Positions 1-62,150 of a stretch of DNA of 64,000 bases are shown here, piece after piece (position 1 is the first letter of the stretch; each line of letters begins with the position of its first letter). The notes under the pieces are model-generated. The model saw only the letters and a program-made list of their open reading frames with translations. It was not told the DNA's origin and did no database searches. The stretch lies in the NCBI RefSeq assembly GCF_000003605.2, contig NW_003135827.1, forward strand, positions 62,001 to 126,000, in the 5' to 3' direction. The stretch is from Saccoglossus kowalevskii (taxonomy: Eukaryota > Hemichordata > Enteropneusta > Harrimaniidae). Made by a program: the position numbers and the translations under genes.

Positions 1-56
1 TTTTTCGGTGGGTACCATTTAATTTCACTACCCTGGCTACGTGTTAAAATGGTTAT

Positions 57-196: not shown

Positions 197-245
197 GAAT
201 TCATTTTGCATAAGTACGTACATAACCGACCAATCGTGGACTTTA

Positions 246-355
246 TTTTGCATGCAGGTAAGGTATACCTACAGACATAACTGTGGACATTATGCTTAAA
301 CTTATGTACTAAGACGTTAGTTAACATTTAATATCAGGCAATGCATTGGTTCATT
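246..355 (+). repeat. 110-bp replacement segment, copy 1
   Basis: Sequence after ACTTTA departs from the standard unit at 246 and rejoins it at TTACCCTGG, so 64 bp (phases 50-113) are replaced by 110 bp and the unit becomes 186 bp. It contains the palindromes TGCATGCA, AGGTATACCT and CAATGCATTG, plus GTTAAC. This copy has the TAAAC variant of the CTTA(A/T)AC site. Upstream is the GCATAAG subtype. Downstream come a CACTCTGG unit and then a CACTCTGG unit with ACAAAACC. There is no target-site duplication and no coding potential. Its origin is unknown. Confidence 0.95.
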
Positions 356-3300
356 ACCCTGGCTACGTGTTAAAATGGTTATGAATTCACTCTGGATAAG
401 TACGTACATAACCGACCAATCGTGGACTTTAATTCAATGTGTTGGTCAGGGTTCTGACCCTGTGTATTTTTCGGTGGGTACTGTTTAATTTCACTATCCT
501 GGCTACGTGTTAAAATGGTTATGAATTCACTCTGGATAAGTACGTACAAAACCGACCAATCATGGACTTTAATTCAATGTGTTGGTCAGGGTTCTGACCC
601 TGTGTATTTTTCGGTGGGTACCGTTTAATTTCACTATCCTGGCTATGTGTTAAAATGGTTATGAATTCATTTTGGATAAGTACGTACATAACCGACCAAT
701 CGTGGACTTTAATTCAATGTGTTGGTCAGGGTTCTGACCCTGTGTATTTTTCGGTGGGTACCGTTTAATTTCACTACCCTGGCTATGCGTTAAAATGGTT
801 ATGAATTCATTTTGGATAAGTACGTACATAACCGACCAATCGTGGACTTTAATTCAATGTGTTGGTCAGGGTTCTGACCCTGTGTATTTTTCGGTGGGTA
901 CCGTTTAATCTCACTATCCTGGCTACGCGTTAAAATGGTTATGACTTCATTTTGGATAAGTACGTACATAACCGACCAATTGTGGACTTTAATTCAATGT
1001 GTTGGTCAGGGTTCTGACCCTGTGTATTTTTCGGTGGGTACCATTTAATTTCACTATCCTGGCTACGTGTTAAAATGGTTATGAATTCATTTTGGATAAG
1101 TACGTACATAACCGACCAATCATGGACTTTAATTCAATGTGTTGGTCAGGATTCTGACCCTGTGTATTTTTCGGTGGGTACCGTTTAATTTCACTATCCT
1201 GGCTACGTGTTAAAATGGTTATGAATTCATTTTGGATAAGTACGTACATAACCGACCAATCGTGGACTTTAATTCAATGTGTTGGTCAGGGTTCTGACCC
1301 TGTGTATTTTTCGGTGGGTACCGTTTAATTTCACTACCCTGGCTACGTGTTAAAATGGTTATGAATTCATTTTGGATAAGTACGTACATAACCGACCAAT
1401 CGTGGACTTTAATTCAATGTGTTGGTCAGGGTTCTGACCCTGTGTATTTTTCGGTGGGTACCGTTTAATTTCACTATCCTGGCTATGTGTTAAAATGGTT
1501 ATGAATTCACTCTGGATAAGTACGTACATAACCGACCAATCGTGGACTTTAATTCAATGTGTTGGTCAGGGTTCTGACCCTGTGTATTTTTCGGTGGGTA
1601 CCGTTTAATTTCACTATCCTGGCTACGTGTTAAAATGGTTATGAATTCATTTTGGATAAGTACATACATAACCGACCAATCGTTGACTTTAATTCAATGT
1701 GTTGGTCAGGGTTCTGACCCTGTGTATTTTTCGGTGGGTACCGTTTAATTTCACTACCCTGGCTACGCGTTAAAATGGTTATGAATTCATTTTGGATAAG
1801 TACGTACATAACCGACCAATCGTGGACTTTAATTCAATGTGTTGGTCAGGGTTCTGACCCTGTGTATTTTTCGGTGGGTACCGTTTAATTTCACTACCCT
1901 GGCTACGCGTTAAAATGGTTATGAATTCATTTTGGATAAGTACGTACATAACCGACCAATCATGGACTTTAATTCAATGTGTTGGTCAGGGTTCTGACCC
2001 TGTGTATTTTTCGGTGGGTACCATTTAATTTCACTACCCTGGGTACGCGTTAAAATGGTTATGAATTCATTTTGGATAAGTACGTACATAACCGACCAAT
2101 CGTGGACTTTAATTCAATGTGTTGGTCAGGGTTCTGACCCTGTGTATTTTTTGGTGGGTACCGTTTAATTTCACTACCCTGGCTACGTGTTAAAATGGTT
2201 ATGAATTCATTTTGGATAAATACGTTCATAACCGACCAATCATGGACTTTAATTCAATGTGTTGGTCAGGGTTCTGACCCTGTGTATTTTTCGGTGGGTA
2301 CCGTTTAATTTCACTACCCTGGCTATGCGTTAAAATGGTTATGAATTCATTTTGGATAAGTACGTACATAACCGACCAATCGTGGACTTTAATTCAATGT
2401 GTTGGTCAGGGTTCTGACCCTGTGTATTTTTCGGTGGGTACCGTATTTAATTTCACTATCCTGGCTACGTGTTAAAATGGTTATGAATTCATTTTGAATA
2501 AGTACGTACATAACCGACCAATCATGGACTTTAATTCAATGTGTTGGTCAGGGTTCTGACCCTGTGTATTTTTCGGTGGGTACCGTTTAATTTCACTACC
2601 CTGGCTACGCGTTAAAATGGTTATGAATTCATTTTGGATAAGTACGTACATAACCGACCAATTGTGGACTTTAATTCAATGTGTTGGTCAGGGTTCTGAC
2701 CCTGTGTATTTTTCGGTGGGTACCGTTTAATTTCACTACCCTGGCTACGCGTTAAAATGGTTATGAATTCATTTTGGATAAGTACGTACATAACCGACCA
2801 ATCGTGGACTTTAATTCAATGTGTTGGTCAGGGTTCTGACCCTGTGTATTTTTCGGTGTGTACCGTTTACTTTCACTACCCTGGCTACGCGTTAAAATGG
2901 TTATGAATTCATTTTGGATAAATACGTACATAACCGACCAATCGTGGACTTTAATTCAATGTGTTGGTCAGGGTTCTTGACCCTGTGTATTTTTCGGTGG
3001 GTACCGTTTAATTTCACTACCCTGGCCACGCGTTAAAATGGTTATGAATTCATTTTGGATAAGTACGTACATAACCGACCAATCGTGGACTTTAATTCAA
3101 TGTGTTGGTCAGGGTTCTGACCCTGTGTATTTTTCGGTGGGTACCGTTTAATTTCACTACCCTGGCTACGTGTTAAAATGGTTATGAATTCATTTTGCAT
3201 AAGTACGTACATAACCGACCAATCGTGGACTTTAATTCAATGTGTTGGTCAGGGTTCTGACCCTGTGTATTTTTCGGTGGGTACCGTTTAATTTCACTAC

Positions 3301-4450
3301 CCTGGCTACGTGTTAAAATGGTTATGAATTCATTTTGGATAAGTACGTACATAACCGACCAATCGTGGACTTTAATTCAATGTGTTGGTCAGGGTTCTGA
3401 CCCTGTGTATTTTTCGGTGGGTACCGTTTAATTTCACTATCCTGGCTACGTGTTAAAATGGTTATGAATTCATTTTGGATAAGTACGTACATAACCGACC
3501 AATCGTGGACTTTAATTCAATGTGTTGGTCAGGGTTCTGACCCTGTGTATTTTTCGGTGGGTACCGTTTAATTTCACTACCCTGGCCACGCGTTAAAATG
3601 GTTATGAATTCATTTTGGATAAGTACGTACATAACCGACCAATCGTGGACTTTAATTCAATGTGTTGGTCAGGGTTCTGACCCTGTGTATTTTTCGGTGG
3701 GTACTGTTTAATTTCACTACCCTGGCTACGCGTTAAAATGGTTATGAATTCATTTTGGATAAGTACGTACATAACCGACCAATCGTGGACTTTAATTCAA
3801 TGTGTTGGTCAGGGTTCTGACCCTGTGTATTTTTCGGTGGGTACCGTTTAATTTCGCTATCCTGGCTACGTGTTAAAATGGTTATGAATTCATTTTGGAT
3901 AAGTACGTACATAACCGACCAATCGTGGACTTTAATTCAATGTGTTGGTCAGGGTTCTGACCCTGTGTATTTTTCGGTGGGTACCGTTTAATCTCACTAC
4001 CATGGCTACTCGTTAAAATGGTTATGAATTCATTTTGGATAAGTACGTACATAACCGACCAATCATGGACTTTAATTCAATGTGTTGGTCAGGGTTCTGA
4101 CCCTGTGTATTTTTCGGTGGGTACCGTTTAATTTCACTACCCTGGCTACGTGTTAAAATGGTTATGAATTCACTCTGGATAAGTATGTACATAACCGACC
4201 AATCGTGGACTTTAATTCAATGTGTTGGTCAGGGTTCTGACCCTGTGTATTTTTCGGTGGGTACCGTTTAATTTCACTACCCTGGCTACGTGTTAAAATG
4301 GTTATGAATTCATTTTGGATAAGTACGTACATAACCGACCAATCTTGGACTTTATTTCAATGTGTTGGTCAGGGTTCTGACCCTGTGTATTTTTCGGTGG
4401 GTACCGTTTAATTTCACTACCCTGGCTACGCGTTAAAATGGTTATGAATT

Positions 4451-4740
4451 CATTTTGGATATTAAGTATGTACATAACCGATCAATCTTGGACTTTATTT
4501 CAATGTGTTGGTCAGGGTTCTGACCCTGTGTATTTTTCGGTGGGTACCGTTTAATTTCACTACCCTGGCTACGCGTTAAAATGGTTATGAATTCATTTTG
4601 GATATTAAGTATGTACATAACCGATCAATCTTGGACTTTATTTCAATGTGTTGGTCAGGGTTCTGACCCTGTGTATTTTTTGGTGGGTACCGTTTAATTT
4701 CACTACCCTGGCTACGCGTTAAAATGGTTATGAATTCATT
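4451..4740. repeat. Tandem pair of 143-bp variant monomers
   Basis: Two adjacent units carry GGATATTAAG in place of GGATAAG, together with AAGTATGTAC, CCGATCAATC and the T-type CTTGG/TTATTTC. Their spacing is 143 bp. The shared private variants show one was copied from the other in tandem. Confidence 0.88.
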
Positions 4741-6130
4741 TTGGATAAGTACGTACATAACCGACCAATCGTGGACTTTAATTCAATGTGTTGGTCAGGG
4801 TTCTGACCCTGTGTATTTTTCGGTGGGTACCGTTTAATTTCACTACCCTGGCTACGTGTTAAAATGGTTATGAATTCATTTTGGATAAGTACGTACATAA
4901 CCGACCAATCTTGGACTTTATTTCAATGTGTTGGTCAGGGTTCTGACCCTGTGTATTTTTCGGTGGGTACCGTTTAATTTCACTACCCTGGCTACGCGTT
5001 AAAATGGTTATGAATTCATTTTGGATAAGTACGTACATAACCGACCAATCTTGGACTTTATTTCAATGTGTTGGTCAGGGTTCTGACCCTGTGTATTTTT
5101 CGGTGGATACCGTTTAATTTCACTACCCTGGCTACGTGTTAAAATGGTTATGAATTCATTTTGGATAAGTACGTACATAACCGACCAATCTTGGACTTTA
5201 ATTCAATGTGTTGGTCAGGGTTCTGACCCTGTGTATTTTTCGGTGGGTACCGTTTAATTTCACTATCCTGGCTACGTGTTAAAATGGTTATGAATTCATT
5301 TTGGATAAGTACGTACATAACCGACCAATCGTGGACTTTAATTCAATGTGTTGGTCAGGGTTCTGACCCTGTGTATTTTTCGGTGGGTACCGTTTAATTT
5401 CACTATCCTGGCTACGTGTTAAAATGGTTATGAATTGATTTTGGATAAGTACGTACATAACCGATCAATCGTGGACTTTAATTCAATGTGTTGGTCAGGG
5501 TTCTGACCCTGTGTATTTTTCGGTGGGTACCGTTTAATTTCACTATCCTGGCTACGTGTTAAAATGGTTATGAATTCATTTTGGATAAGTACGTACATAA
5601 CCGACCAATCGTGGACTTTAATTCAATGTGTTGGTCAGGGTTCTGACCCTGTGTATTTTTCGGTGGGTACCGTTTAATTTCACTACCCTGGCTACGTGTT
5701 AAAATGGTTATGAATTCATTTTGGATAAGTACGTACAAAACCGACCAATCGTGGACTTTAATTCAATGTGTTGGTCAGGGTTCTGACCCTGTGTATTTTT
5801 CGGTGGGTACCGTTTAATTTCACTACCCTGGCTACGTGTTAAAATGGTTATGAATTCATTTTGGATAAGTACGTACATAACCGACCAATCTTGGACTTTA
5901 ATTCAATGTGTTGGTCAGGGTTCTGACCCTGTGTATTTTTCGGTGGGTACCGTTTAATTTCATTACCCTGGCTACGTGTTAAAATGGGTCTGAAGTCACT
6001 CTGGATAAGTACGTACATAACCGACCAATCTTGGACTTTAATTCAATGTGTTGGTCAGGGTTCTGACCCTGTGTATTTTTCGGTGGGTACCGTTTAATTT
6101 CATTACCCTGGCTACGTGTTAAAATGGTTA

Positions 6131-6930
6131 TGAATTCATTTTGGATAAGTACGTACATAACCGACCAATCTTGGACTTTATTTCAATATGTTGGTCAGGG
6201 TTCAGACCCTGTGTATTTTTCGGTGGGTACCGTTTAATTTCATTACCCTGGCTACGTGTTAAAATGGTTATGAATTCATTTTGGATAAGTTACGTACGTA
6301 ACCGACCAATCTTGGACTTTATTTCAATATGTTGGTCAGGGTTCTGACCCTGTGTATTTTTCGGTGGGTACCGTTTAATTTCACTACCCTGGCTACGTGT
6401 TAAAATGGTTATGAATTCATTTTGGATAAGTACGTACATAACCGACCAATCTTGGACTTTATTTCAATATGTTGGTCAGGGTTCAGACCCTGTGTATTTT
6501 TCGGTGGGTACCGTTTAATTTCATTACCCTGGCTACGTGTTAAAATGGTTATGAATTCATTTTGGATAAGTTACGTACGTAACCGACCAATCTTGGACTT
6601 TATTTCAATATGTTGGTCAGGGTTCTGACCCTGTGTATTTTTCGGTGGGTACCGTTTAATTTCACTACCCTGGCTACGTGTTAAAATGGTTATGAATTCA
6701 TTTTGGATAAGTACGTACATAACCGACCAATCTTGGACTTTATTTCAATATGTTGGTCAGGGTTCAGACCCTGTGTATTTTTCGGTGGGTACCGTTTAAT
6801 TTCACCACCCTGGCTACGTGTTAAAATGGGTATGAATTCATTTTGGATAAGTACGTACATAACCGACCAATCTTGGACTTTATTTCAATGTGTTGGTCAG
6901 GGTTCTGACCCTGTGTATTTTTCGGTGGGT
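6131..6930. repeat. 281-bp dimer higher-order repeat, nearly three copies
   Basis: The private marker TTCAGACC occurs at 6201, 6482 and 6763, exactly 281 bp apart. The one-base-longer TTACGTACGTAACC marker occurs in the alternate units near 6290 and 6571 and is missing from the third copy. The dimer is one 140-bp and one 141-bp T-type unit, each with TTTCAATATG. Identical short reading frames appear in each copy only because the DNA is duplicated. Confidence 0.93.
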
Positions 6931-7389
6931 ATCGTTTAATTTCACTACCCTGGCTACGTGTTAAAATGGTTATGAATTCATTTTGCATAAGTACGTACAT
7001 AACCGACCAATCATGGACTTTAATTCAATGTGTTGGTCAGGGTTCTGACCCTGTGTATTTTTCGGTGGGTACCGTTTAATTTCACTACCCTGGCCACGCG
7101 TTAAAATGGTTATGAATTCATTTTGGATAAGTACGTACATAACCGACCAATCGTGGACTTTAATTCAATGTGTTGTTCAGGGTTCTGACCCTGTGTATTT
7201 TTCGGTGGGTACCGTTTAATTTCACTATCCTGGCTACGTGTTAAAATGGTTATGAATTCATTTTGGATAAGTACGTACATAACCGAGCAATCGTGGACTT
7301 TAATTCAATGTGTTGGTCAGGGTTCTGACCCTGTGTATTTTTCGGTGGGTACCGTTTAATTTCACTACCCTGGCTACGCGTTAAAATGG

Positions 7390-7520
7390 TTATGAATTCA
7401 TTTTTGGATAAGTACGTACATAAACCAACCAATCGTGGACTTTAATTCAATGTGTTGGTCTGGGTTCTGACCCTGTGTATTTTTTCGGTGGGTACCGTTT
7501 AATTTTCACTACCCTGGCTA
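7390..7520. repeat. Monomer patch with clustered one-base insertions
   Basis: Within about one unit, homopolymers are one base longer than usual: CATTTTTGG, ATAAACC, a T6 before CGGTGGG, and AATTTTCAC. Neighbouring units lack these. This could be a decayed copy or a low-quality consensus stretch; the second seems more likely. Confidence 0.6.
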
Positions 7521-8006
7521 CACGTTAAAATGGTTATGAAATCATTTTGGATAAGTACGTACATAACCGACCAATCGTGGACTTTAATTCTATGTGTTGG
7601 TCAGGGTTCTGACCCTGTGTATTTTTCGGTGGGTACCGTTTAATTTCACTACCCTGGCTACGCGTTAAAATGGTTATGAATTCATTTTGGATAAGTACGT
7701 ACATAACCGACCAATCGTGGACTTTAATTCAATGTGTTGGTCAGGGTTCTGATCCTGTGTATTTTTCGGTGGGTACCGTTTAATTTCACTATCTTGGCTA
7801 CGTGTTAAAATGGTTATGAATTCATTTTGGATAAGTACGTACATAACCGACCAATCGTGGACTTTAATTCAATGTGTTGGTCAGGGTTCTGACCCTGTGT
7901 ATTTTTTGGTGGGTACCGTTTAATTTCACTATCCTGGCTACGTGTTAAAATGGTTATGAATTCATTTTGGATAAGTACGTACCTAACCGACCAATCGTGG
8001 ACTTTA

Positions 8007-8116
8007 TTTTGCATGCAGGTAAGGTATACCTACAGACATAACTGTGGACATTATGCTTAAACTTATGTACTAAGACGTTAGTTAACATTTAATATCAGGC
8101 AATGCATTGGTTCACT
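8007..8116 (+). repeat. 110-bp replacement segment, copy 2
   Basis: It has the TAAAC variant. It is the only copy whose right junction reads TTCACTACCC, identical to a standard unit, instead of TTCATTACCC. It is also unusual upstream: the unit is GGATAAG, not GCATAAG, with ACCTAACC. The first downstream unit has CATTTTGGATAAATACG and the second is CACTCTGG with ACAAAACC. The right junction may reflect exchange with a standard unit. Confidence 0.94.
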
Positions 8117-9325
8117 ACCCTGGCTACACGTTAAAATGGTTATGAATTCATTTTGGATAAATACGTACATAACCGACCAATCGTGGACTTTAATTCTATG
8201 TGTTGGTCAGGGTTCTGACCCTGTGTATTTTTCGGTGGGTACCGTTTAATTTCACTACCCTGGCTACGTGTTAAAATGGTTATGAATTCACTCTGGATAA
8301 GTACGTACAAAACCGACCAATCATGGACTTTAATTCAATGTGTTGGTCAGGGTTCTGACCCTGTGTATTTTTCGGTGGGTACCGTTTAATTTCACTACCC
8401 TGGCTACGCGTTAAAATGGTTATGAATTCATTTTGGATAAGTACGTACATAACCGACCAATCGTGGACTTTAATTCAATGTGTTGGTCAGGGTTCTGACC
8501 CTGTGTATTTTTCGGTGGGTACCGTTTAATTTCACTACCCTGGCTACGCGTTAAAATGGTTATGAATTCATTTTGGATAAGTACGTACATAACCGAACAA
8601 TCGTGGACTGTAATTCAATGTGTTGGTCAGGGTTCTGACCCTGTGTATTTTTCGGTGGGTACCGTTTAATTTCACTACCCTGGCTACGCGTTAAAATGGT
8701 TATGAATTCATTTTGGATAAATACGTACATAACCGACCAATCGTGGACTTTAATTCAATATGTTGGTCAGGGTTCTGACCCTGTGTATTTTTCGGTGGGT
8801 ACCGTTTAATTTCACTACCCTGGCTACACGTTAAAATGGTTATGAATTCATTTCGGATAAGTACGTACATAACCGACCAATCGTGGAATTTAATTCTATG
8901 TGTTGGTCAGGGTTCTGACCCTGTGTATTTTTCGGTGGGTACCGTTTAATTTCACTACCCTGGCCACGCGTTAAAATGGTTATGAATTCATTTTGGATAA
9001 GTACGTACATAACCGACCAATCGTGGACTTTAATTCAATGTGTTGGTCAGGGTTCTGACCCTGTGTATTTTTCGGTGGGTACCGTTTAATTTCACTACCC
9101 TGGCTACGCGTTAAAATGGTTATGAATTCATTTTGGATAAGTACGTACATAACCGACCAATCGTGGACTTTAATTCAATGTGTTGGTCAGGGTTCTGACC
9201 CTGTGTATTTTTCGGTGGGTACCGTTTAATTTCACTATCCTGGCTACGTGTTAAAATGGTTATGAATTCACTCTGGATAAGTACGTACAAAACCGACCAA
9301 TCATGGACTTTAATTCAATGTGTTG

Positions 9326-9475
9326 GTCAGGTTCTGACTCTGTGTATTTTTCGGTGGGTACCGTTTAATTTCACTTCTCCTGCTATGTGTTAAATGGTTA
9401 TGAATTCATTTGGATAAGTACGTACATACCGACCAATCGTGGACTTTAATTCAATGTGTTGGTCAGGGTCTGACC
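9326..9475. repeat. Monomer patch with clustered one-base deletions
   Basis: Just over one unit shows GGTCAGGTTCTGACTC, CACTTCTCCTGC, GTTAAATGG, ATTTGG, CATACCG and CAGGGTCTGACC, nearly all single-base losses in short homopolymers. Flanking units are normal. The likely cause is a local consensus error, though a decayed unit is possible. Confidence 0.6.
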
Positions 9476-12400: not shown

Positions 12401-13739
12401 TGGTCAGGGTTCTTACCCTGTGTATTTTTCGGTGGGTACCGTTTAATTTCACTACCCTAGCTACGTGTTAAAATGGTTATGAATTCATTTTGGATAAGTA
12501 CGTACATAACCGACCAATCGTGGACTTTAATTCAATGTGTTGGTCAGGGTTCTGACCCTGTGTATTTTTCGGTGGGTACCGTTTAATTTCACTACCCTGG
12601 CTACGCGTTAAAATGGTTATGAATTCATTTTGGATAAGTACGTACATAACCGACCAATCGTGGACTTTAATTCAATGTGTTGGTCAGGATTCTGACCCTG
12701 TGTATTTTTCGGTGGGTACCGTTTAATTTCACTATCCTGGCTACGTGTTAAAATGGTTATGAATTCATTTTGGATAAGTACGTACATAATCGACCAATCG
12801 TGGACTTTAATTCAATGTGTTGGTCAGGATTCTGACCCTGTGTATTTTTCGGTGGGTACCGTTTAATTTCACTACCCTGGCTACGTGTTAAAATGGTTAT
12901 GAATTCATTTTGCATAAGTACGTACATAACCGACCAATCGTGGACTTTAATTCAATGTGTTGGTGAGGGTTCTGACCCTGTGTATTTTTCGGTGGGTACC
13001 GTTTAATTTCACTACCCTGGCTACGCGTTAAAATGGTTATGAATTCATTTTGGATAAGTACGTACATAACCGACCAATCGTGGACTTTAATTCAATGTGT
13101 TGGTCAGGGTTCTGACCTTGTGTATTTTTCGGTGGGTACCGTTTAATTTAACTACCCTGGCTATGCGTTAAAATGGTTATGAATTCATTTTGGATAAGTA
13201 CGTACATAACCGACCAATCGTGGACTTTAATTCAATGTGTTGGTCAGGGTTCTGACCCTGTGTATTTTTCGGTGGGTACCGTTTAATTTCACTATCCTGT
13301 CTATGTGTTAAAATGGTTATGAATTCACTCTGGATAAGTACGTACATAACCGACCAATCTTGGACTTTAATTCAATGTGTTGGTCAGGGTTCTGACCCTG
13401 TGTATTTTTCGGTGGGTACCGTTTAATTTCACTACCCTGGCTACGTGTTAAAATGGGTCTGAATTCACTCTGGATAAGTACGTACATAACCGACCAATCT
13501 TGGACTTTAATTCAATGTGTTGGTCAGGGTTCTGACCCTGTGTATTTTTCGGTGGGTATGTTTAATTTCACTATCCTGGCTACGTGTTAAAATGGTTATG
13601 AATTCACTCTGGATAAGTACGTACATAACCGACCAATCTTGGACTTTAATTCAATGTGTTGGTCAGGGTTCTGTCCCTGTGTATTTTTCGGTGGGTACCG
13701 TTTAAGTTCACTACACTGGCTACGTGTTAAAATGGTTAT

Positions 13740-13935
13740 GAAATCACTCTGGATAAGTACATACATAAACCGACCAATCTTTGACTTTTATTCAATGTGT
13801 TTGGTCAAGGTTTCTGAACCTTTGTGTATTTTTCGGTGGGTACCGTTTAAATTTCACTACCCTGGCTACGCGTTAAAAATGGTTATGAATTCATTTTGGA
13901 TAAGTACGTACATAACCGACCAAATCGTGGACTTT
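13740..13935. repeat. Monomer patch with clustered one-base insertions
   Basis: This patch shows ATAAACCG, ACTTTTATTC, GTGTTTGGTCAAGG, TTTCTGAACC, TTTGTG, TTTAAATTTC, TTAAAAATGG and CCAAATCG. Nearly every change lengthens a homopolymer by one, unlike the deletion-only patch at 9326-9475. A one-directional error of this kind suggests poor local consensus. Confidence 0.62.
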
Positions 13936-14917
13936 AATTCAATGTGTTGCTCAGGGTTCTGACCCTGTGTATTTTTCGGTGGGTACCCTTTAATTTCACT
14001 ATCCTGGCCACGCGTTAAAATGGTTATGAATTCATTTTGGATAAGTACGTACATAACCGACCAATCGTGGACTTTAATTCAATGTGTTGGTCAGGGTTCT
14101 GACCCTGTGTATTTTTCAGTGGGTACCGTTTAATTTCACTACCCTGGCTACGCGTTAAAATGGTTATGAATTCATTTTGGATAAGTACGTACATAACCGA
14201 CCAATCGTGGACTTTAATTCAATGTGTTGGTCAGGGTTCTGACCCTGTGTATTTTTCGGTGGGTACCGTTTAATTTCACTATCCTGGCTACGTGTTAAAA
14301 TGGTTATGAATTCATTTTGGATAAGTACGTACATAACCGACCAATCGTGGACTTTAATTCAATGTGTTGGTCAGGGTTCTGACCCTGTGTATTTTTCGGT
14401 GGGTACCGTTTATTCTCACTACCCTGGCTACGTGTTAAAATGGTTATGATTCATTTTGGATAAGTACGTACATAACCGACCAATTCGTGGACTTTAATTC
14501 TATGTGTTGCTCAGGGTTCTGACCCTGTGTATTTTTCAGTGGGTACCGTTTAATTTCACTAATCCTGGCCACGCGTTAAAATGGTTATGATTTCATTTTG
14601 CATCAATACGTACATAACCGACCAATCGTGGACTTTAATTCAATGTGTTGGTCAGGGTTCTGACCCTGTGTATTTTTCGGTGGGTACCGTTTAATTTCAC
14701 TACCCTGGCTATGCGTTAAAATGGTTATGAATTCATTTTGGATAAGTACGTACATAACCGACCAATCGTGGACTTTAATTCAATGTGTTGGTCAGGGTTC
14801 TGACCCTGTGTATTTTTCGGTGGGTACCGTTTAATTTCACTACCCTGGCTACGTGTTAAAATGGTTATGAATTCATTTTGCATAAGTACGTACATAACCG
14901 ACCAATCGTGGACTTTA

Positions 14918-15027
14918 TTTTGCATGCAGGTAAGGTATACCTACAGACATAACTGTGGACATTATGCTTATACTTGTGTACTAAGACGTTAGTTAACATT
15001 TAATATCAGGCAATGCATTGGTTCATT
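14918..15027 (+). repeat. 110-bp replacement segment, copy 3
   Basis: It has the TATAC variant with a private A-to-G change giving CTTGTGTAC. Upstream is the GCATAAG subtype. Downstream come a CACTCTGG unit and then a GCATAAG unit. It starts 1,164 bp before copy 4. Confidence 0.95.
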
Positions 15028-16081: not shown

Positions 16082-16191
16082 TTTTGCATGCAGGTAAGGT
16101 ATACCTACAGACATAACTGTGGACATTATGCTTAAACTTATGTACTAAGACGTTAGTTAACATTTAATATCAGGCAATGCATTGGTTCATT
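16082..16191 (+). repeat. 110-bp replacement segment, copy 4
   Basis: It has the TAAAC variant. Upstream is GCATAAG. Downstream come a CACTCTGG unit and then a CACTCTGG unit with ACAAAACC, the same linked flank as copies 1, 11 and 14. Confidence 0.95.
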
Positions 16192-17247: not shown

Positions 17248-17357
17248 TTTTGCATGCAGGTAAGGTATACCTACAGACATAACTGTGGACATTATGCTTA
17301 TACTTATGTACTAGGATGTTAGTTAACATTTAATATCAGGCAATGCATTGGTTCATT
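17248..17357 (+). repeat. 110-bp replacement segment, copy 5
   Basis: It has the TATAC variant plus CTAGGATG in place of CTAAGACG, a two-base difference shared only with copy 6. Upstream is GCATAAG; downstream is a CACTCTGG unit. Copies 5 and 6 are sister copies. Confidence 0.95.
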
Positions 17358-20093: not shown

Positions 20094-20203
20094 TTTTGCA
20101 TGCAGGTAAGGTATACCTACAGACATAACTGTGGACATTATGCTTATACTTATGTACTAGGATGTTAGTTAACATTTAATATCAGGCAATGCATTGGTTC
20201 ATT
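20094..20203 (+). repeat. 110-bp replacement segment, copy 6
   Basis: It is TATAC with the CTAGGATG signature shared only with copy 5, 2,846 bp away. Upstream is GCATAAG in a unit with ACCTTGGCTATG. Downstream is a CACTCTGG unit. Confidence 0.95.
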
Positions 20204-24197: not shown

Positions 24198-24307
24198 TTT
24201 TGCATGCAGGTAAGGTATACCTACAGACATAACTGTGGACATTATGCTTATACTTATGTACTAAGACGTTAGTTAACATTTAATATCAGGCAATGCATTG
24301 GTTCATT
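24198..24307 (+). repeat. 110-bp replacement segment, copy 7
   Basis: It has the TATAC variant. The right flank reads CCCTGACTACG and then CACTCTGAATAAG, shared with copy 9. A GGATTCCGACC unit follows 250 bp downstream, again as in copy 9 but with one monomer fewer between. Upstream is GCATAAG. Confidence 0.95.
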
Positions 24308-27172: not shown

Positions 27173-27282
27173 TTTTGCATGCAGGTAAGGTATACCTACA
27201 GACATAACTGTGGACATTATGCTTATACTTATGTACTAAGACGTTAGTTAACATTTAATATCAGGCAATGCATTGGTTCATT
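27173..27282 (+). repeat. 110-bp replacement segment, copy 8
   Basis: It has the TATAC variant. The upstream unit is GGATAAG, not the usual GCATAAG. Three CACTCTGG units follow, and the third carries ACAAAACC, so it combines the TATAC form with the flank typical of TAAAC copies and may be a recombinant. Confidence 0.95.
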
Positions 27283-30162: not shown

Positions 30163-30272
30163 TTTTGCATGCAGGTAAGGTATACCTACAGACATAACTG
30201 TGGACATTATGCTTATACTTATGTACTAAGACGTTAGTTAACATTTAATATCAGGCAATGCATTGGTTCATT
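30163..30272 (+). repeat. 110-bp replacement segment, copy 9
   Basis: It has the TATAC variant. The right flank CCCTGACTACG plus CACTCTGAATAAG is shared with copy 7. The next unit has ACATACATGACCG and CATGG, as after copy 17. Upstream is GCATAAG. Confidence 0.95.
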
Positions 30273-36507: not shown

Positions 36508-36617
36508 TTTTGCATGCAGGTAAGGTATACCTACAGACATAACTGTGGACATTATGCTTATACTTATGTACTAAGACGTTAGTTAACATTTAATATCAGG
36601 CAATGCATTGGTTCATT
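36508..36617 (+). repeat. 110-bp replacement segment, copy 10
   Basis: It has the TATAC variant. The upstream unit carries the private AATTTAACTACC also seen before copy 13, and is GCATAAG. The downstream unit is CACTCTGG with ACCGTCCAATC. Confidence 0.95.
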
Positions 36618-38089: not shown

Positions 38090-38199
38090 TTTTGCATGCA
38101 GGTAAGGTATACCTACAGACATAACTGTGGACATTATGCTTAAACTTATGTACTAAGACGTTAGTTAACATTTAATATCAGGCAATGCATTGGTTCATT
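38090..38199 (+). repeat. 110-bp replacement segment, copy 11
   Basis: It has the TAAAC variant. Upstream is GCATAAG. Downstream come a CACTCTGG unit and then CACTCTGG with ACAAAACC. Together with its left flank it is the counterpart of copy 14 at an offset of 10,219 bp. Confidence 0.95.
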
Positions 38200-40935: not shown

Positions 40936-41045
40936 TTTTGCATGCAGGTAAGGTATACCTACAGACATAACTGTGGACATTATGCTTATACTTATGTACT
41001 AAGACGTTAGTTAACATTTAATATCAGGCAATGCATTGGTTCATT
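40936..41045 (+). repeat. 110-bp replacement segment, copy 12
   Basis: It has the TATAC variant. The hybrid's left part is unusual: GGCCACGCG, TGTATAAG, ACGTATATAACC and GTGGGCTTTA. Downstream is CACTCTGAATAAG, shared with copies 7, 9 and 17. Confidence 0.95.
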
Positions 41046-44061: not shown

Positions 44062-44171
44062 TTTTGCATGCAGGTAAGGTATACCTACAGACATAACTGT
44101 GGACATTATGCTTATACTTATGTACTAAGACGTTAGTTAACATTTAATATCAGGCAATGCATTGGTTCATT
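44062..44171 (+). repeat. 110-bp replacement segment, copy 13
   Basis: It has the TATAC variant. The upstream unit is GCATAAG with AATTTAACTACC, as before copy 10. The downstream unit has the private CACTCTGGGTAAG. Confidence 0.95.
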
Positions 44172-48308: not shown

Positions 48309-48418
48309 TTTTGCATGCAGGTAAGGTATACCTACAGACATAACTGTGGACATTATGCTTAAACTTATGTACTAAGACGTTAGTTAACATTTAATATCAG
48401 GCAATGCATTGGTTCATT
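48309..48418 (+). repeat. 110-bp replacement segment, copy 14
   Basis: It has the TAAAC variant. Upstream is GCATAAG. Downstream come CACTCTGG and then CACTCTGG with ACGTTCAAAACC, a one-base derivative of the ACAAAACC flank shared with copies 1, 4 and 11. Confidence 0.95.
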
Positions 48419-51400: not shown

Positions 51401-54400
51401 TTTGGATAAGTACGTACATAACCGACCAATCGTGGACTTTAATTCAATGTGTTGGTCAGGATTCTGACCCTGTGTATTTTTCGGTGGGTACCGTTTAATT
51501 TCACTACCCTGGGTACGCGTTAAAATGGTTATGAATTCATTTTGGATAAGTACGTACATAACCGACAAATCGTGGACTTTAATTCAATGTGTTGGTCAGG
51601 GTTCTGACCCTGTGTATTTTTCGGTGGGTACCGTTTAATTTCACTACCCTGGCTATGTGTTAAAATGGTTATGAATTCATTTTGGATAAGTACGTACATA
51701 ACCGACCAATCGTGGGCTTTAATTCAATGTGTTGGTCAGGGTTCTGACCCTGTGTATTTTTCGGTGGGTACCGTTTAATTTCACTACCCTGGCTACGTGT
51801 TAAAATGGTTATGAATTCATTTTGCATAAGTACGTACATAACCGACCAATCGTGGACTTTAATTCAATGTGTTGGTCAGGGTTCTGACCCTGTGTATTTT
51901 TTGGTGGGTACCGTTTAATTTCACTACCCTGGCTACGTGTTAAAATGGTTATGAATTCATTTTGCATAAGTACGTACATAACCGACCAATCATGGACTTT
52001 AATTCAATGTGTTGGTCAGGGTTCTGACCCTGTGTATTTTTCGGTGGGTATCGTTTAATTTCACTACCCTGGCTACGTGTTAAAATGGTTATGAATTCAT
52101 TTTGGATAAGTACGTACATAACCGACCAATCTTGGACTTTATTTCAATGTGTTGGTCAGGGTTCTGACCCTGTGTATTTTTCGGTGGGTACCGTTTAATT
52201 TCACTACCCTGGCTACGTGTTAAAATGGTTATGAATTCATTTTGGATAAGTACGTACATAACCGACCAATCTTGGACTTTATTTCAATGTGTTGGTCAGG
52301 GTTCTGACCCTGTGTATTTTTCGGTGGGTACCGTTTAATTTCACTACCCTGGCTACGCGTTAAAATGGTTATGAATTCATATTGGATAAGTACGTACATA
52401 ACCGACCAATCGTGGACTTTAATTCAATGTGTTGGTCAGGGTTCTGACCCTGTGTATTTTTCGGTGGGTACCGTTTAATTTCACTACCCTGGCTATGTGT
52501 TAAAATGGTTATGAATTCATTTTGGATAAGTACGTGCATAACCGACCAATCTTGGACTTTAATTCAATGTGTTGGTCAGGGTTCTGATCCTGTGTATTTT
52601 TCGGTGGGTACCGTTTAATTTCACTATCCTGGCTACGTGTTAAAATGGTTATGAATTCATTTTGGATAAGTACGTACATAACCGACCAATCGTGGACTTT
52701 AATTCAATGTGTTGGTCAGGGTTCTGACCCTGTGTATTTTTTGGTGGGTACCGTTTAATTTCACTATCCTGGCTACGTGTTAAAAAGGTTATGATTTCAT
52801 TTTGGATAAGTACGTACATAACCGACCAATCGTGGACTTTAATTCAATGTGTTGGTCAGGGTTCTGACCCTGTGTATTTTTCGGTGGGTACCGTTTAATT
52901 TCACTACCCTGGCTATGCGTTAAAATGGTTATGAATTCATTTTGGATAAGTACGTACATAACCGACCAATCGTGGACTTTAATTCAATGTGTTGGTCAGG
53001 GTTCTGACCCTGTGTATTTTTCGGTGGGTACCGTTTAATCTCACTACCCTGGCTATGCGTTAAAATGGTTATGAATTCCTTTTGGATAAGTACGTACATA
53101 ACCGACCAATCGTGGACTTTAATTCAATGTGTTGGTCAGGGTTCTGACCCTGTGTATTTTTCGGTGGGTACCGTTTAATCTCACTACCCTGGCTACGCGT
53201 TAAAATGGTTATGACTTCATTTTGGATAAGTACGTACATAACCGACCAATCGTGGACTTTAATTCAATGTGTTGGTCAGGGTTCTGACCCTGTGTATTTT
53301 TCGGTGGGTACCGTTTAATTTCACTATCCTGGCTACGTGTTAAAATGGTTATGAATTCATTTTGGATAAGTACGTACATAACCGACCAATCGTGGACTTT
53401 AATTCAATGTGTTGGTCAGGGTTCTGACCCTGTGTATTTTTCGGTGGGTACCATTTAATTTCACTACCCTGGCTACGCGTTAAAATGGTTATGAATTCAT
53501 TTTGGATAAGTACGTACATAACCGACCAATCGTGGACTTTAATTCTATGTGTTGGTCAGGATTCTGACCCTGTGTATTTTTCGGTGGGTACCGTTTAATT
53601 TCACTATCCTGGCTACGTGTTAAAATGGTTATGAATTCATTTTGGATAAGTACGTACATAACCGACCAATAGTGGACTTTAATTCAATGTGTTGGTCAGG
53701 GTTCTGACCCTGTGTATTTTTCGGTGGGTACCGTTTAATTTCACTATCCTGGCTACGTGTTAAAATGGTTATGAATTCATTTTGGATAAGTATGTACATA
53801 ACCGACCAATCGTGGACTTTAATTCAATGTGTTGGTCAGGGTTCTGACCCTGTGTATTTTTCGGTGGGTACCGTTTAAATTCACTATCCTGGCTACGTGT
53901 TAAAATGGTTATGAATTCATTTTGGATGAGTACGTACATAACCGACCAATCGTGGACTTTAATTCAATGTGTTGGTCAGGGTTCTGACCCTGTGTATTTT
54001 TCGGTGGGTACCGTTTAATTTCACTACCCTGGCTACGTGTTAAAATGGTTATGAATTCATTTTGGATAAGTACGTACATAACCGACCAATCGTGGACTTT
54101 AATTCAATGTGTTGGTCAGGGTTCTGACCCTGTGTATTTTTCGGTGGGTACCGTTTAATTTCACTATCCTGGCTACGTGTTAAAATGGTTATGAATTCAT
54201 TTTGGATAAGTACGTACATAACCGACCAATCGTGGACTTTAATTCAATGTGTTGGTCAGGGTTCTGACCCTGTGTATTTTTCGGTGGGTACCGTTTAATT
54301 TCACTACCCTGGCCACGCGTTAAAATGGTTATGAATTCATTTTGGATAAGTACGTACATAACCGACCAATCGTGGACTTTAATTCAATGTGTTGGTCAGG

Positions 54401-56345
54401 GTTCTGACCCTGTGTATTTTTCGGTGGGTACCGTTTAATTTCACTACCCTGGCTACGTGTTAAAATGGTTATGAATTCATTTTGCATGAGTACGTACATA
54501 ACCGACCAATCGTGGACTTTAATTGAATGTGTTGGTCAGGGTTCTGACCCTGTGTATTTTTCGGTGGGTACCGTTTAATTTCACTACCCTGGCTACGCGT
54601 TAAAATGGTTATGAATTCATTTTGGATAAGTACGTACATAAACGACCAATCGTGGACTTTAATTCAATGTGTTGGTCAGGGTTCTGACCCTGTGTATTTT
54701 TCGGTGGGTACCGTTTAATTTCACTACCCTGGCTACGCGTTAAAATGGTTATGAATTCATTTTGGATAAGTACGTACATAACCGACCAATCGTGGACTTT
54801 AATTCAATGTGTTGGTCAGGGTTCTGACCCTGTGTATTTTTCGGTGGGTACCGTATAATTTCACTATCCTGGCTACGTGTTAAAATGGTTATGAATTCAT
54901 TTTGGATATTAAAAAGTACGTACATAACCGACCAATCGTGGACTTTAATTCAATGTGTTGGTCAGGGTTCTGTCCCTGTGTATTTTTCGGTGGGTACCGT
55001 TTAATTTCACTACCCTGGCTACGCGTTAAAATGGTTATGAATTCATTTTGGATAAGTACGTACATAACCGACCAATCGTGGACTTTAATTCAATGTGTGG
55101 TCAGGGTCTGACCCTGTGTATTTTTCGGTGGGTACCGTTTAATTTCACTATCCTGGCTACGTGTTAAAATGGTTATGAATTCATTTTGGATAAGTACGTA
55201 CATAACCGACCAATCGTGGACTTTAATTCAATGTGTTGGTCAGGGTTCTGACCCTGTGTATTTTTCGGTGGGTACCGTTTAATTTCACTATCCTGGCTAC
55301 GTGTTAAAATGGTTATGAATTCATTTTGGATAAGTACGTACATAACTGACCAATCGTGGACTTTAATTCAATGTGTTGGTCAGGGTTCTGACCCTGTGTA
55401 TTTTTCGGTGGGTACCGTTTAATTTCACTATCCTGGCTACGTGTTAAAATGGTTATGAATTCATTTTGGATAAGTACATACATAACCGACCAATCGTGGA
55501 CTTTAATTCAATGTGTTGGTCAGGGTTCTGACCCTGTGTATTTTTCGGTGGGTACCGTTTAATTTCACTATCCTGGCTACGTGTTAAAATGGTTATGAAT
55601 TCATTTTGCATAAGTACGTACATAACCGACCAATCGTGGACTTTAATTCAATGTGTTGGTCAGGGTTCTGACCCTGTGTATTTTTCGGTGGGTACCGTTT
55701 AATTTCACTACCCTGGCTACGCGTTAAAATGGTTATGAATTCATTTTGGATAAGTACGTACATAACCGACCAGTCGTGGACTTTAATTCAATGTGTTGGT
55801 CAGGGTTCTGACCCTGTGTATTTTTCGGTGGGTACCATTTAATTTCACTACCCTGGCTACGTGTTAAAATGGTTATGAATTCATTTTGGATAAGTACGTA
55901 CATAACCGACCAATCGTGCTCTTTAATTCAATGTGTTGGTCAGGGTTCTGACCCTGTGTATTTTTCGGTGGGTACCGTTTAATTTCACTACCCTGGCTAC
56001 ATGTTAAAATGGTTATACATTCATTTTGCATAAGTACGTACATGACCGACCAATCGTGGACTTTAATTCAATGTGTTGGTCAGGGTTCTGACCCTGTGTA
56101 TTTTTCGGTGGGTACCGTTTAATTTCACTACCCTGGCTACGTGTTAAAATGGTTATGAATTCATTTTGGATAAGTACGTACATAACCGACCAATCGTGGG
56201 CTTTAATTCAATGTGTTGGTCAGGGTTCTGACCCTGTGTATTTTTCGGTGGGTACCGTTTAATTTCACTACCCTGGCTACGTGTTAAAATGGTTATGAAT
56301 TCATTTTGCATAAGTACGTACATAACCGACCAATCGTGGACTTTA
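48419..56345. repeat. Array segment between hybrids 14 and 15 (about 56 standard units)
   Basis: This is the longest stretch without a hybrid. Three units carry insertions at the same GGATAAG site: GGATGATAAG (49438), GGATATTAAG (50701) and GGATATTAAAAAG (54904). The T-type block at about 52050-52560 is the partner of 20760-21400. ATAGTGG and AAGTATGTAC units lie near 53670-53795. No gene is present. Confidence 0.93.
51923..52563. repeat. Long-range duplicated block, right partner
   Basis: It matches 20760-21400 through GGGTATCG (52047), T-type units, CATATTGG (52378) and GTGCATAACC (52534). It stops at the first GTGCATAACC unit and lacks the second copy of the trimer found at 21601-22020. 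Confidence 0.88.
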
Positions 56346-56454
56346 TTTTGCATGCAGGTAAGGTATACCTACAGACATAACTGTGACATTATGCTTATAC
56401 TCATGTACTAAGACGTTAGTTAACATTTAATATCAGGCAATGCATTGGTTCATT
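56346..56454 (+). repeat. Replacement segment, copy 15 (109 bp)
   Basis: It has the TATAC variant with a one-base loss (CTGTGACATT for CTGTGGACATT) and a private CTCATG. The hybrid continues with a 4-bp insertion giving CTACATGTTTGTTAAAATGG. Upstream is GCATAAG; downstream is CACTCTGG. It is the most diverged copy. Confidence 0.95.
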
Positions 56455-58215
56455 ACCCTGGCTACATGTTTGTTAAAATGGTTATGAATTCACTCTGGAT
56501 AAGTACGTACATAACCGACCAATCGTGGACTTTAATTCAATGTGTTGGTCAGGGTTCTGACCCTGTGTATTTTTCGGTGGGTACCGTTTAATTTCACTAT
56601 CCTGGCTACGTGTTAAAATGGTTATGAATTCACTCTGGATAAGTACGTACATAACCGACCAATCGTGGACTTTAATTCAATGTGTTGGTCAGGGTTCTGA
56701 CCCTGTGTATTTTTCGGTGGGTACCGTTTAATTTCACTATCCTGGCTACGTGTTAAAATGGTTATGAATTCATTTTGGATAAGTACGTACATAACCGACC
56801 AATCGTGGACTTTAATTCAATGTGTTGGTCAGGGTTCTGACCCTGTGTATTTTTCGGGGGGTATCGTTTAATTTCACTACCGTGGCTACGCGTTAAAATG
56901 GTTATGAATTCATTTTGGATAAGTACGTACATAACCGACCAATCGTGGACTTTAATTCAATGTGTTGGTCAGGGTTCTGACCCTGTGTATTTTTCGGTGG
57001 GTACCGTTTAATTTCACTACCCTGGCTACGCGTTAAAATGGTTATGAATTCATTTTGGATAAGTACGTACATAACCGATTAATCTTGGACTTTAATTCAA
57101 TGTGTTGGTCAGGGTTCTGACCCTGTGTATTTTTCGGTGGGTACCGTTTAATTTCACTGTACTGGCTACGTGTTCAAATGGTTATGAATTCATTTTGGAT
57201 AAGTACGTACATAACCGACCAATCGTGGACTTTAATTCAATGTGTTGGTCAGGGTTCTGACCCTGTGTATTTTTCAGTGGGTACCGTTTAATTTCACTAC
57301 CCTGGCTACGCGTTAAAATGGTTATGAATTCATTTTGGATAAGTATGTACATAATCGACCAATCGTGGACTTTAATTCAATGTGTTGGTCAGGGTTCTGA
57401 CCCTGTGTATTTTTCGGTGGGTACCGTTTAATTTCACTACCCTGGCTACGCGTTAAAATGGTTATGAATTCATTTTGGATAAGTACGTACATAACCGACC
57501 AATCGTGGACTTTAATTCAATGTGTTGTTCAGAGTTCTGACCCTGTGTATTTTTTGGTGGGTACCGTTTAATTTCACTACCCTGGCTACGCGTTAAAATG
57601 GTTATGAATTCATTTTGGATAAGTACGTACATAACCGACCAATCGTGGACTTTAATTCAATGTGTTGGTCAGGGTTCTGACCCTGTGTATTTTTCGGTGG
57701 GTACTGTTTAATTTCACTACCCTGGCTATGTGTTAAAATGGTTATGAATTCACTCTGGATAAGTATGTACATAACCGACCAATCGTGGACTTTAATTCAA
57801 TGTGTTGGTCAGGGTTCTGACCCTGTGTATTTTTCGGTGGGTACCGTTTAATTTCACTATCCTGGCTACGCGTTAAAATGGTCATGAATTCATTTTGGAT
57901 AAGTACGTACATAACCGACCAATCGTGGACTTTAATTCAATGTGTTGGTCAGGGTTCTGACCCTGTGTATTTTTCGGTGGGTACTGTTTAATTTCACTAC
58001 CCTGGCTACGTGTTAAAATGGTTATGAATTCATTTTAGATAAGTACGTACATAACCGACCAATCGTGGACTTTAATTCAATGTGTTGGTCAGGGTTCTGA
58101 CCCTGTGTATTTTTCGGTGGGTACCGTTTAATTTCACTACCCTGGCTACGTGTTAAAATGGTTATGAAATTCATTTTGCATAAGTACGTACATAACCGAC
58201 CAATCGTGGACTTTA
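56455..58215. repeat. Array segment between hybrids 15 and 16 (12 standard units)
   Basis: Twelve units with scattered private changes: CGGGGGGTATCG near 56857, CACTGTACTGG near 57157, GTTCAAATGG near 57173 and TTTTAGATAAG near 58034. No gene is present. Confidence 0.95.
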
Positions 58216-58325
58216 TTTTGCATGCAGGTAAGGTATACCTACAGACATAACTGTGGACATTATGCTTATACTTATGTACTATGACGTTAGTTAACATTTA
58301 ATATCAGGCAATGCATTGGTTCATT
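58216..58325 (+). repeat. 110-bp replacement segment, copy 16
   Basis: It has the TATAC variant with a private CTATGACG. The upstream GCATAAG unit has an extra A (ATGAAATTC), which destroys its GAATTC. Downstream is CACTCTGG with ACCGATCAATC. Confidence 0.95.
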
Positions 58326-61300
58326 ACCCTGGCTACGTGTTAAAATGGTTATGAATTCACTCTGGATAAGTACGTACATAACCGATCAATCGTGGACTTT
58401 AATTCAATGTGTTGGTCAGGGTTCTGACCCTGTGTATTTTTCGGTGGGTACCGTTTAATTTCACTACCCTGGCTACGTGTTAAAATGGTTATGAATTCAT
58501 TTTGCATAAGTACGTACATAACCGACCAATCATGGACTTTAATTCAATGTGTTGGTCAGGGTTCTGACCCTGTGTATTTTTCGGTGGGTACCGTTTAATT
58601 TCACTACCCTGGCTACGTGTTAAAATGGTTATGAATTCATTTTGCATAAGTACGTACATAACCGACCAATCGTGGACTTTAATTCAATGTGTTGGTCAGG
58701 GTTCTGACCCTGTGTATTTTTCGGTGGGTACCGTTTAATTTCACTACCCTGGCTACGTGTTAAAATGGTTATGAATTCATTTTGGATAAGTACGTACATA
58801 ACCGACCAATCGTGGACTTTAATTCAATGTGTTGGTCAGGGTTCTGACCCTGTGTATTTTTCGGTGGGTACCGTTTAATTTCACTATCCTGGCTACGTGT
58901 TAAAATGGTTATGAATTCATTTTGGATAAGTACGTACATAACCGACCAATCGTGGACTTTAATTCAATGTGTTGGTCAGGGTTCTGACCCTGTGTATTTT
59001 TCGGTGGGTACCGTTTAATTTCACTATCCTGGCTACGCGTTAAAATGGTTATGAATTCATTTTGGATAAGTACGTACATAACCGACCAATCGTGGACTTT
59101 AATTCAATGTGTTGTCAGGGTTCTGACCCTGTGTATTTTTCGGTGGGTACCGTTTAATTTCACTATCCTGGCTACGCGTTAAAATGGTTATGAATTCATT
59201 TTGGATAAGTACGTACATAACCGACCAATCGTGGACTTTAATTCAATGTGTTGTCAGGGTTCTGACCCTGTGTATTTTTCGGTGGGTACCGTTTAATTTA
59301 ACTATCCTGGCTACGCGTTAAAATGGTTATGAATTCATTTTGGATAAGTATGTACATAACCGACCAATCGTGGACTTTAATTCAATGTGTTGGTCAGGGT
59401 TCTGACCCTGTGTATTTTTCGGTGGGTACCGTTTAATTTCACTACCCTGGCTACGCGTTAAAATGGTTATGAATTCATTTTGGATAAGTACGTACATAAC
59501 CGACCAATCGTGGACTTTAATTCAATGTGTTGGTCAGGGTTCTGACCCTGTGTATTTTTCGGTGGGTACCGTTTAATCTCACTAACCTGGCTACTCGTTA
59601 AAATGGTTATGAATTCATTTTGGATAAGTACGTACATAACCGACCAATCGTGGACTTTAATTCAATGTGTTGGTCAGGGTTCTGACCCTGTGTATTTTTC
59701 GGTGGGTACCGTTTAATTTCACTATCCTGGCTACGTGTTAAAATGGCTATGAATTCATTTTGGATAAGTACGTACATAACCGACCAATCGTGGACTTTAA
59801 TTCAATGTGTTGGTCAGGGTTCTGACCCTGTGTATTTTTCGGTGGGTACCATTTAATTTCACTACCCTGGCTACGCGTTAAAATGGTTATGAATTCATTT
59901 TGGATAAGTACGTACATAACCGACCAATCGTGGACTTTAATTCAATGTGTTGGTCAGGATTCTGACCCTGTGTATTTTTCGGTGGGTACCGTTTAATTTC
60001 ACTATCCTGGCTACGTGTTAAAATGGTTATGAATTCATTTTGGATAAGTACGTACATAACCGACCAATCGTGGACTTTAATTCAATGTGTTGGTCAGGGT
60101 TCTGACCCTGTGTATTTTTCGGTGGGTACCGTTTAATTTCACTACCCTGGCTACGTGTTAAAATGGTTATGAATTCATTTTGGATAAGTACGTACATAAC
60201 CGACCAATCGTGGACTTTAATTCAATGTGTTGGTCAGGGTTCTGACCCTGTGTATTTTTCGGTGGGTACCGTTTAATTTCACTACCCTGGCTACGCGATA
60301 AAATGGTTATTTAATTCATTTTGGATAAATACGTACATAACCGACCAATCGTGAACTTTAATTCAATATGTTGGTCAGGGTTCTGACCCTGTGTATTTTT
60401 CGGTGGGTACCGTTTAATTTCACTACCCTGGCTACGCGTTAAAATGGTTATGAATTCATTTTGGATTAGTACGTACATAACCGACCAATCGTGGACTTTA
60501 ATTCAATGTGTTGGTCAGGAGTCTGACCCTGTGTATTTTTCGGTGGGTACCGTTTAATTTCACTACCCTGGCCACGCGTTAAAATGGTTATGAATTCATT
60601 TTGGATAAGTACGTACATAACCGACCAATCGTGGACTTTAATTCAATGTGTTGGTCAGGGTTCTGACCCTGTGTATTTTTCGGTGGGTACCGTTTAATTT
60701 CACTACCCTGGCTACGCGTTAAAATGGTTATGAATTCATTTTGGATAAGTACGTACATAACCGACCAATCGTGGACTTTAATTCAATGTGTTGGTCAGGG
60801 TTCTGACCCTGTGTATTTTTCGGTGGGTACCGTTTAATTTCACTATCCTGGCTACGTGTTAAAATGGTTATGAATTCATTTTGGATAAGTACGTACATAA
60901 CCGACCAATCGTGGACTTTAATTCAATGTGTTGGTCAGGGTTCTGACCCTGTGTATTTTTCGGTGGGTACCGTTTAATCTCACTACCCTGGCTACTCGTT
61001 AATATGGTTATGAATTCATTTTGGATAAGTACGTACATAACCGACCAATCGTGGACTTTAATTCAATGTGTTGGTCAGGGTTCTGACCCTGTGTATTTTT
61101 CGGTGGGTACCGTTTAATTTCACTACCCTGGCTACGCGTTAAAATGGTTATGAATTCATTTTGGATAAGTACGTACATAACCGACCAATCGTGGACTTTA
61201 ATTCAATGTGTTGGTCAGGGTTCTGACCCTGTGTATTTTTCGGTGGGTACCGTTTAATTTCACTACCCTGGCTACGCGTTAAAATGGTTATGAATTCATT

Positions 61301-62040
61301 TTGGATAAGTACGTACATAACCGACCAATCGTGGACTTTAATTCAATGTGTTGGTCAGGGTTCTGACCCTGTGTATTTTTCGGTGGGTACCGTTTAATCT
61401 CACTACCCTGGCTACGCGTTAAAATGGTTATGAATTCATTTTGGATAAGTACGTACATAACCGACCAATCGTGGACTTTAATTCAATGTGTTGGTCAGGG
61501 TTCTGACCCTGTGTATTTTTCGGTGGGTACCGTTTAATCTCACTACCCTGGCTACGTGTTAAAATGGTTATGAATTCATTTTGGATAAGTACGTACATAA
61601 CCGACCAATCGTGGACTTTAATTCAATGTGTTGGTCAGGGTTCTGACCCTGTGTATTTTACGGTGGGTACCGTTTAATTTCACTATCCTGGCTACGTGTT
61701 AAAATGGTTATGAATTCATTTTGGATAAGTACGTACATAACCGACCAATCGTGGACTTTAATTCAATGTGTTGGTCAGGGTTCTGACCCTGTGTATTTTT
61801 CGGTGGGTACCGTTTAATTTCACTACCCTGGCTACGCGTTAAAATGGTTATGAATTCATTTTGGATAAGTACGTACATAACCGACCAATCGTGGACTTTA
61901 ATTCAATGTGTTGGTCAGGGTTCTGACCCTGTGTATTTTTCGGTGGGTACCGTTTAATTTCACTACCCTGGCTACGTGTTAAAATGGTTATGAATTCATT
62001 TTGCATAAGTACGTACATAACCGACCAATCGTGGACTTTA
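58326..62040. repeat. Array segment between hybrids 16 and 17 (about 26 standard units)
   Basis: Two adjacent 139-bp units share GTGTTGTCAGGG (59111 and 59250) and the uncommon T115 with ACGCG combination, a tandem copy of a one-base-deleted unit. CTACTCG units lie near 59592 and 60991. The stretch 60322-60575 matches 38517-38770. No gene is present. Confidence 0.94.
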
Positions 62041-62150
62041 TTTTGCATGCAGGTAAGGTATACCTACAGACATAACTGTGGACATTATGCTTATACTTAT
62101 GTACTAAGACGTTAGTTAACATTTAATATCAGGCAATGCATTGGTTCATT
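62041..62150 (+). repeat. 110-bp replacement segment, copy 17
   Basis: It has the TATAC variant. Upstream is GCATAAG. Downstream is CACTCTGAATAAG, then a unit with ACATACATGACCG and CATGG, the same chain as after copy 9. Confidence 0.95.

Follow-up and report, generated by a model that had tools for sequence, protein, structure and literature searches.

Replacement of one segment within a 140-bp satellite monomer, probably once, and its spread as a minority of hybrid units

A satellite monomer with a replaced segment

Scattered through a long array of 140-bp satellite monomers we find hybrid units in which 104 bp of other sequence stand in place of 58 bp of the plain monomer, and we consider it highly probable that they go back to one ancestral replacement that was then spread by ordinary short-tract exchange between repeats. 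Support comes from junctions that are the same, small base changes aside, in all of the complete hybrids compared on four contigs and from a single founder haplotype in the home array, as expected under the original prediction of one ancestral recombination followed by array turnover.

The window, that is, the whole 64,000-nt stretch that was analysed, comprises bases 62001–126000 of contig C2783 (NW_003135827.1; 140,959 bp), which belongs to a eukaryotic assembly of 572 Mb in 4,830 contigs. Tandem 140-bp repeats occupy the entire window (1–64000, forward strand), where 390 of 449 units measure exactly 140 bp, and the array extends past both window ends to about 141 kb; BLAST searches using consensus sequences of the plain and the hybrid unit covered C2783 save for its last 79 bases (gaps shorter than 6 bases being unlisted). 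Another contig of the same assembly, C4830 (L062), is mitochondrial and carries cox1 on the opposite strand to nad1 and cox2.

Seventeen units in the window are hybrids, 16 of them 186 bp long and one, starting at 56326, 189 bp long. Their replacement segments, all on the forward strand, lie at 246–349, 8007–8110 (where the right flank has been exchanged for the plain type), 14918–15021, 16082–16185, 17248–17351, 20094–20197, 24198–24301, 27173–27276, 30163–30266, 36508–36611, 38090–38193, 40936–41039, 44062–44165, 48309–48412, 56346–56448 (103 bp, in the 189-bp unit), 58216–58319 and 62041–62144. Both segment edges agree at all 17 sites, as had been predicted. The change had also been read correctly as a replacement, although its size, given as 110 bp for 64 bp, included several further bases on the right that form a linked variant (TTCAT/TTCAC); on a strict count, 104 bp (TTTTGC...CATTGG) replace 58 bp (ATTCAA...TTTAAT), a net gain of 46 bp.

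We compared 64 complete hybrids, comprising 45 from C2783, 14 from C3588, three from slices of C865 and two from slices of C971. C2783 contains 46 hybrids by count, the one at 140833, at the contig end, being cut by a dispersed element and therefore left out. Of the 15 hybrids on C3588, 14 could be read whole; the omitted one is held in a 332-bp unit at 14895 that spans an assembly gap. The first 4546 bases of C3588 (L048) are N, possibly an assembly gap. Apart from small base changes and a one-base difference at the left edge, the junctions are identical in 64/64. That difference separates two pairs of arrays by a one-base indel: the left junction reads ACTTTCATTTTGC in C865 (3/3 hybrids in the slices) and ACTTTAATTTTGC in C971 (2/2), one base longer than in C2783 and C3588. 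The switch immediately after ACTTTA, noted earlier for the window, thus holds for C2783 and C3588 only, and since the junction in C865 and C971 is longer, it is the left edge of the C2783 array and not necessarily the founding one. Judging from the aligned junctions, the founding left edge may sit up to 3–4 bases further right.

Hybrids of the home array share one founder haplotype

Variants of the monomer on either side of the segment are strongly associated with it in C2783. On the left, 37/45 hybrids vs 88/944 plain units are preceded by TTTTGCAT at a distance of 37 bp; on the right, 43/45 hybrids vs 27/944 plain units have T at 5 bp, and 42/45 vs 76/944 have ACTCTG at 41–43 bp. The corresponding figures for the window hybrids are 14/17, 16/17 and 16/17. 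One unit further to the right the linkage is partial (ACTCTG in 16/45 vs 76/946, and another site in 30/45 vs 278/946), and at units −2 and +2 it has fallen close to the background level. The hybrids of C2783 are one family with one founder haplotype on both flanks, which fades within one to two monomers. An early reading, in which the segment was linked to its right flank only, was dropped when a site-by-site test showed linkage on both sides.

This shared haplotype bears on whether the segment could instead be a mobile element, or the product of a site-specific cut-and-replace process that acted again and again, each copy then being a separate event at a favoured site. Such a process could produce breakpoints that are identical at many sites, and a swap rather than an addition, and a nematode satellite offers a precedent at a shared motif (PMC3694981). 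Independent events, on the other hand, are not expected to share one flanking haplotype on both sides. Nor does the segment look like a mobile element: no target-site duplication longer than 3 bp was found across the edges (6 bp of slack allowed), in agreement with the prediction that nothing is duplicated there, and no terminal inverted repeats are evident (best match 6 of 15 bases), although some element classes have none. The window lacks the CENP-B box pattern at up to one mismatch, and a search of the assembly for a near-intact left end (up to one mismatch) next to a non-satellite flank returned a sole match, itself a hybrid with a deleted base; this search would overlook more diverged copies and any flank in which both tested positions are T. 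We regard independent placement as extremely unlikely, and a segment mobilised with target duplications, which had been named as the finding that would overturn a single recombination, was not seen.

With a single replacement as the preferred reading, the same linkage gives a measure of how far exchange reaches. First, fully identical hybrid pairs (n = 43) share on average 0.8 neighbours to the left and 0.3 to the right (at most one difference allowed), and identical plain monomer pairs (n = 215) share 0.4 on either side; hybrids therefore travel in blocks about as short as those of plain units. Second, the right flank has been swapped for the plain type in 3/59 complete hybrids of C2783 and C3588. 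Third, longer duplicated blocks exist in small number: among the 20 listed, 4 to 13 units long, six hold a hybrid; in the control, three permutations yielded one block, at the lowest score. Variation in the shared part of the unit is lower in hybrids than in plain units of C2783 (0.016 vs 0.024). Satellite arrays seldom show how long exchange tracts are, and here a segment that does not pair, set in a long homogeneous array, reveals a reach of about 75 bp to the left and 150–200 bp to the right of the segment.

The hybrid is present in diverged arrays

Besides C2783, the hybrid is present in five contigs (C3588, C865, C971, C3203 and C1205). A 34-bp core of the segment, allowing up to 3 mismatches, gave 151 matches across the whole assembly (113 forward and 38 reverse); among the 100 listed, 55 are on C2783 and C3588, 32 on C865 and 13 on C971. 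The same hybrid, its segment carrying a few changes too, stands amid plain monomers that differ at several sites in the C865 and C971 slices. Because these diverged arrays also carry the hybrid, the swap took place before the arrays separated, and a replacement within a monomer has persisted while several arrays of a single genome diverged.

Near the segment, within 10 bp on the left and about 30 bp on the right, the bases that mark each array are common to plain and hybrid units in C2783, C3588 and C865. On C971, where seven plain and two hybrid units were compared, the two kinds agree at two array-marking bases and differ at others. These patterns amount to concerted evolution of the shared part of the monomer, in which neither of the unlike segments takes part.

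Copies with other breakpoints, which had been proposed as evidence against a single event, are absent from the 64 complete hybrids, and one exception was seen elsewhere: at position 1539 of slice L061, on C3203, a unit joins about 10 bases of the left end of the segment to plain monomer. On C2783 and C3588 there are no part-segments, except for six places that are matched by the monomer's own TTTTGCAT variant.

On C3203 and C1205 the segment is split by a dispersed element. On C3203 this element (CAGTTC...ACTGA; L061:84–1259) is about 1.18 kb long and non-coding, with a longest open stretch of 110 codons, and lies within the segment after GTGGACATT. It starts at the same segment position on C1205 (L063:1–80) and at the end of C2783 (140881–140959), and two of the three contigs break off inside it. 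A query with the contig end gave 40 matches, of which 12 are on C3203, C1205 and C2783; the other 28 start at query base 11 or later (26 matches) or at bases 6 and 7 (two), and these copies elsewhere thus come without the segment. The element is a later insertion into the segment and not its donor. It occurs ten times on C3203, 1.6–2.1 kb apart and in nine cases with part of the segment, and so shows the same kind of rare-variant spread.

A tree of the segment was expected to show one origin. In the tree of all 64 hybrids (24 distinct sequences) the copies of C865 and C971 group together and those of C2783 and C3588 are intermixed, with one copy of each of the latter two falling weakly with the C865/C971 group. 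This topology is compatible with one origin but does not prove it, as 0/21 inner branches pass both support thresholds; the junctions and the flanking haplotype are better evidence for a single origin than the tree.

We propose that the hybrids are a structural allele of the satellite monomer. In one monomer, before the present arrays diverged, a single founding event, either a double exchange of the illegitimate kind or a switch of template with subsequent return, would have put about 104 bp of other sequence in the place of some 55–58 bp. The hybrid unit would then have spread among the plain ones through the same exchange of short tracts, by gene conversion and unequal exchange, that keeps plain monomers alike. 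The two units would pair in the roughly 82 bp that they share and not inside the two unlike segments, and for this reason the edges would stay fixed while the flanks homogenise to the local type. What we infer here is the nature of the founding event (illegitimate recombination), its uniqueness, and gene conversion as the mode of copying. Several points count against a single replacement with random copying, namely that no donor was found, the different breakpoint at L061:1539, the partial disagreement of bases on C971 and a tree with no well-supported fork.

Origin of the segment and known replacements

The source of the 104 bp is not visible, as had been anticipated, and the left-end search described above yielded no donor at up to one mismatch. 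In BLAST with the segment, the 40 candidates scored, out of 168–170, are all satellite hybrids, on C2783, C3588, C865 and C971, and Rfam gave no match to window positions 1–700. We also considered and rejected homology between the segment and the replaced part, the backbone or the reverse complement of either, since no comparison with the window form was significant (P 0.27 for the backbone).

A more specific proposal concerns the donor only, and is a variant of the explanation preferred above: the segment could be a decayed partial duplication of the monomer and not foreign DNA, taken from a diverged relative of this satellite and joined with a shift in register of about 46 bp. Its left half is similar to the 43 bp that precede the left edge (0/1000 shuffles in two scorings and 0.003 in a third, with the cut chosen after the alignment had been seen). 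In addition, the form found on C971 aligns end-to-end from monomer phase 118 to phase 82–91, which is in keeping with the 46-bp difference in length, with P of 0.014–0.12 vs shuffles and 0.002–0.035 vs other sequence. These values come from several segment forms and scorings that were tried, however, and the window form against the plain consensus gives only P 0.10–0.46 vs shuffles; a profile of plain monomers misses the segment, yet matches a few shuffles. The C971 form that fits best may itself be derived, because its extra bases are present in 9/18 of the C971 copies and 0/23 of the C865 copies among those listed. We therefore hold an out-of-register origin to be a tentative and rather unlikely reading.

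The kind of event is already known, and the closest precedent is the 'cut-and-replace' described in mollusc and nematode satellites. In the molluscan Cg170 satellite, 54 bp of unrelated sequence take the place of 63 bp of the monomer with the same ends in seven fragments, and the authors regard the replacement as one event and report no motif at the replacement sites (PMC5139131). The likeness to our case is close, in that part of a monomer is lost, other sequence stands in its place with the same ends, and one event is assumed; in Cg170, however, the replaced monomers lie in array flanks, within Helitron-associated fragments, and the incoming and lost stretches are similar in length (PMC5139131), whereas here 46 bp are gained inside long arrays. 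In Meloidogyne satellites monomer replacement takes place at Box 1, for which the authors propose either a transposition-like cut-and-paste or illegitimate recombination (PMC3694981). There too a monomer segment is replaced with precise edges within satellite arrays, but the incoming sequence is a whole known monomer of equal length joined at a motif like the CENP-B box (PMC3694981), and here the lengths are unequal, no donor was found and the window holds no such box at up to one mismatch. A later oyster paper mentions 'cut-and-replace' events again (PMC7492417).

Set against these descriptions, our hybrids show the sharp-edged substitution and the constant ends (64/64, with the one part-segment on C3203 as exception), but the lengths, 104 vs 58 bp, are dissimilar; we therefore assign the case to the same kind of event without making it a member of the Cg170 or Meloidogyne group. 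It differs from both precedents in the length relation and in its spread inside long arrays. Six strings from the satellite and the segment had no match in the literature searched for those strings.

Spacing of the hybrids

The 44 gaps between hybrids on C2783 range from 6 to 57 units and are more even than random (CV 0.61 vs a mean of 0.96; P 0.0004, 5000 placements). No gap is shorter than 6 units, which 0/20,000 random placements match, and the smallest gap on C3588 is 4 units (chance 0.011). Random copying does not predict such even spacing, which hence also counts against the simplest form of the preferred explanation. Among the copies listed for C865 and C971, by contrast, gaps of 1 to 4 units occur, adjacent units included.

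Unlike unit types are also interspersed in higher-order repeat arrays such as those of alpha satellite, and the likeness lies in the presence of unlike unit types in one array. The difference is that C2783 has no fixed multi-unit period; a fixed-period higher-order structure was considered and rejected, as the gaps vary over the range given and the duplicated blocks are short. C3203 does have a repeat of 1.6–2.1 kb, which includes the dispersed element. Equal gap sizes recur (39 pairs vs 25 expected from a smooth model; P 0.023), and because of this recurrence old block duplications may be the cause of the even spacing.

Could the hybrid units be kept by selection, for example as spaced binding sites for a chromosomal protein? 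The even spacing on C2783 and the minimum gaps of 6 units there and 4 units on C3588 would suit such a role. It is at odds with the adjacent units and the gaps of 2–4 units among copies listed for C865 and C971, and the recurring equal gaps are explicable by block duplication. Moreover, the segment is not clearly less variable in hybrids than its plain counterpart (0.0096 vs 0.0111 on C2783 and 0.0110 vs 0.0080 on C3588), the two being about alike. Selection on the hybrids is in our view very improbable. We see it as a long shot, too, that hybrids lying within about 5 monomers of one another are removed or prevented, whether by selection or by recombination, so that the two segment types would coexist with one as a stable, spaced minority. 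Were hybrids held apart in this manner on C2783, the sister arrays with their close pairs would represent a relaxed state.

The composition of the plain monomers also varies along the contig. CTTGG and ACTCTG variants, which look older, are frequent among the plain monomers of C2783:1–5000 (L039), at 0.50 and 0.42, respectively. Plain monomers with these variants reappear, less frequently, in patches such as C2783:60000–70000, which takes in about 1–8000 of the window.
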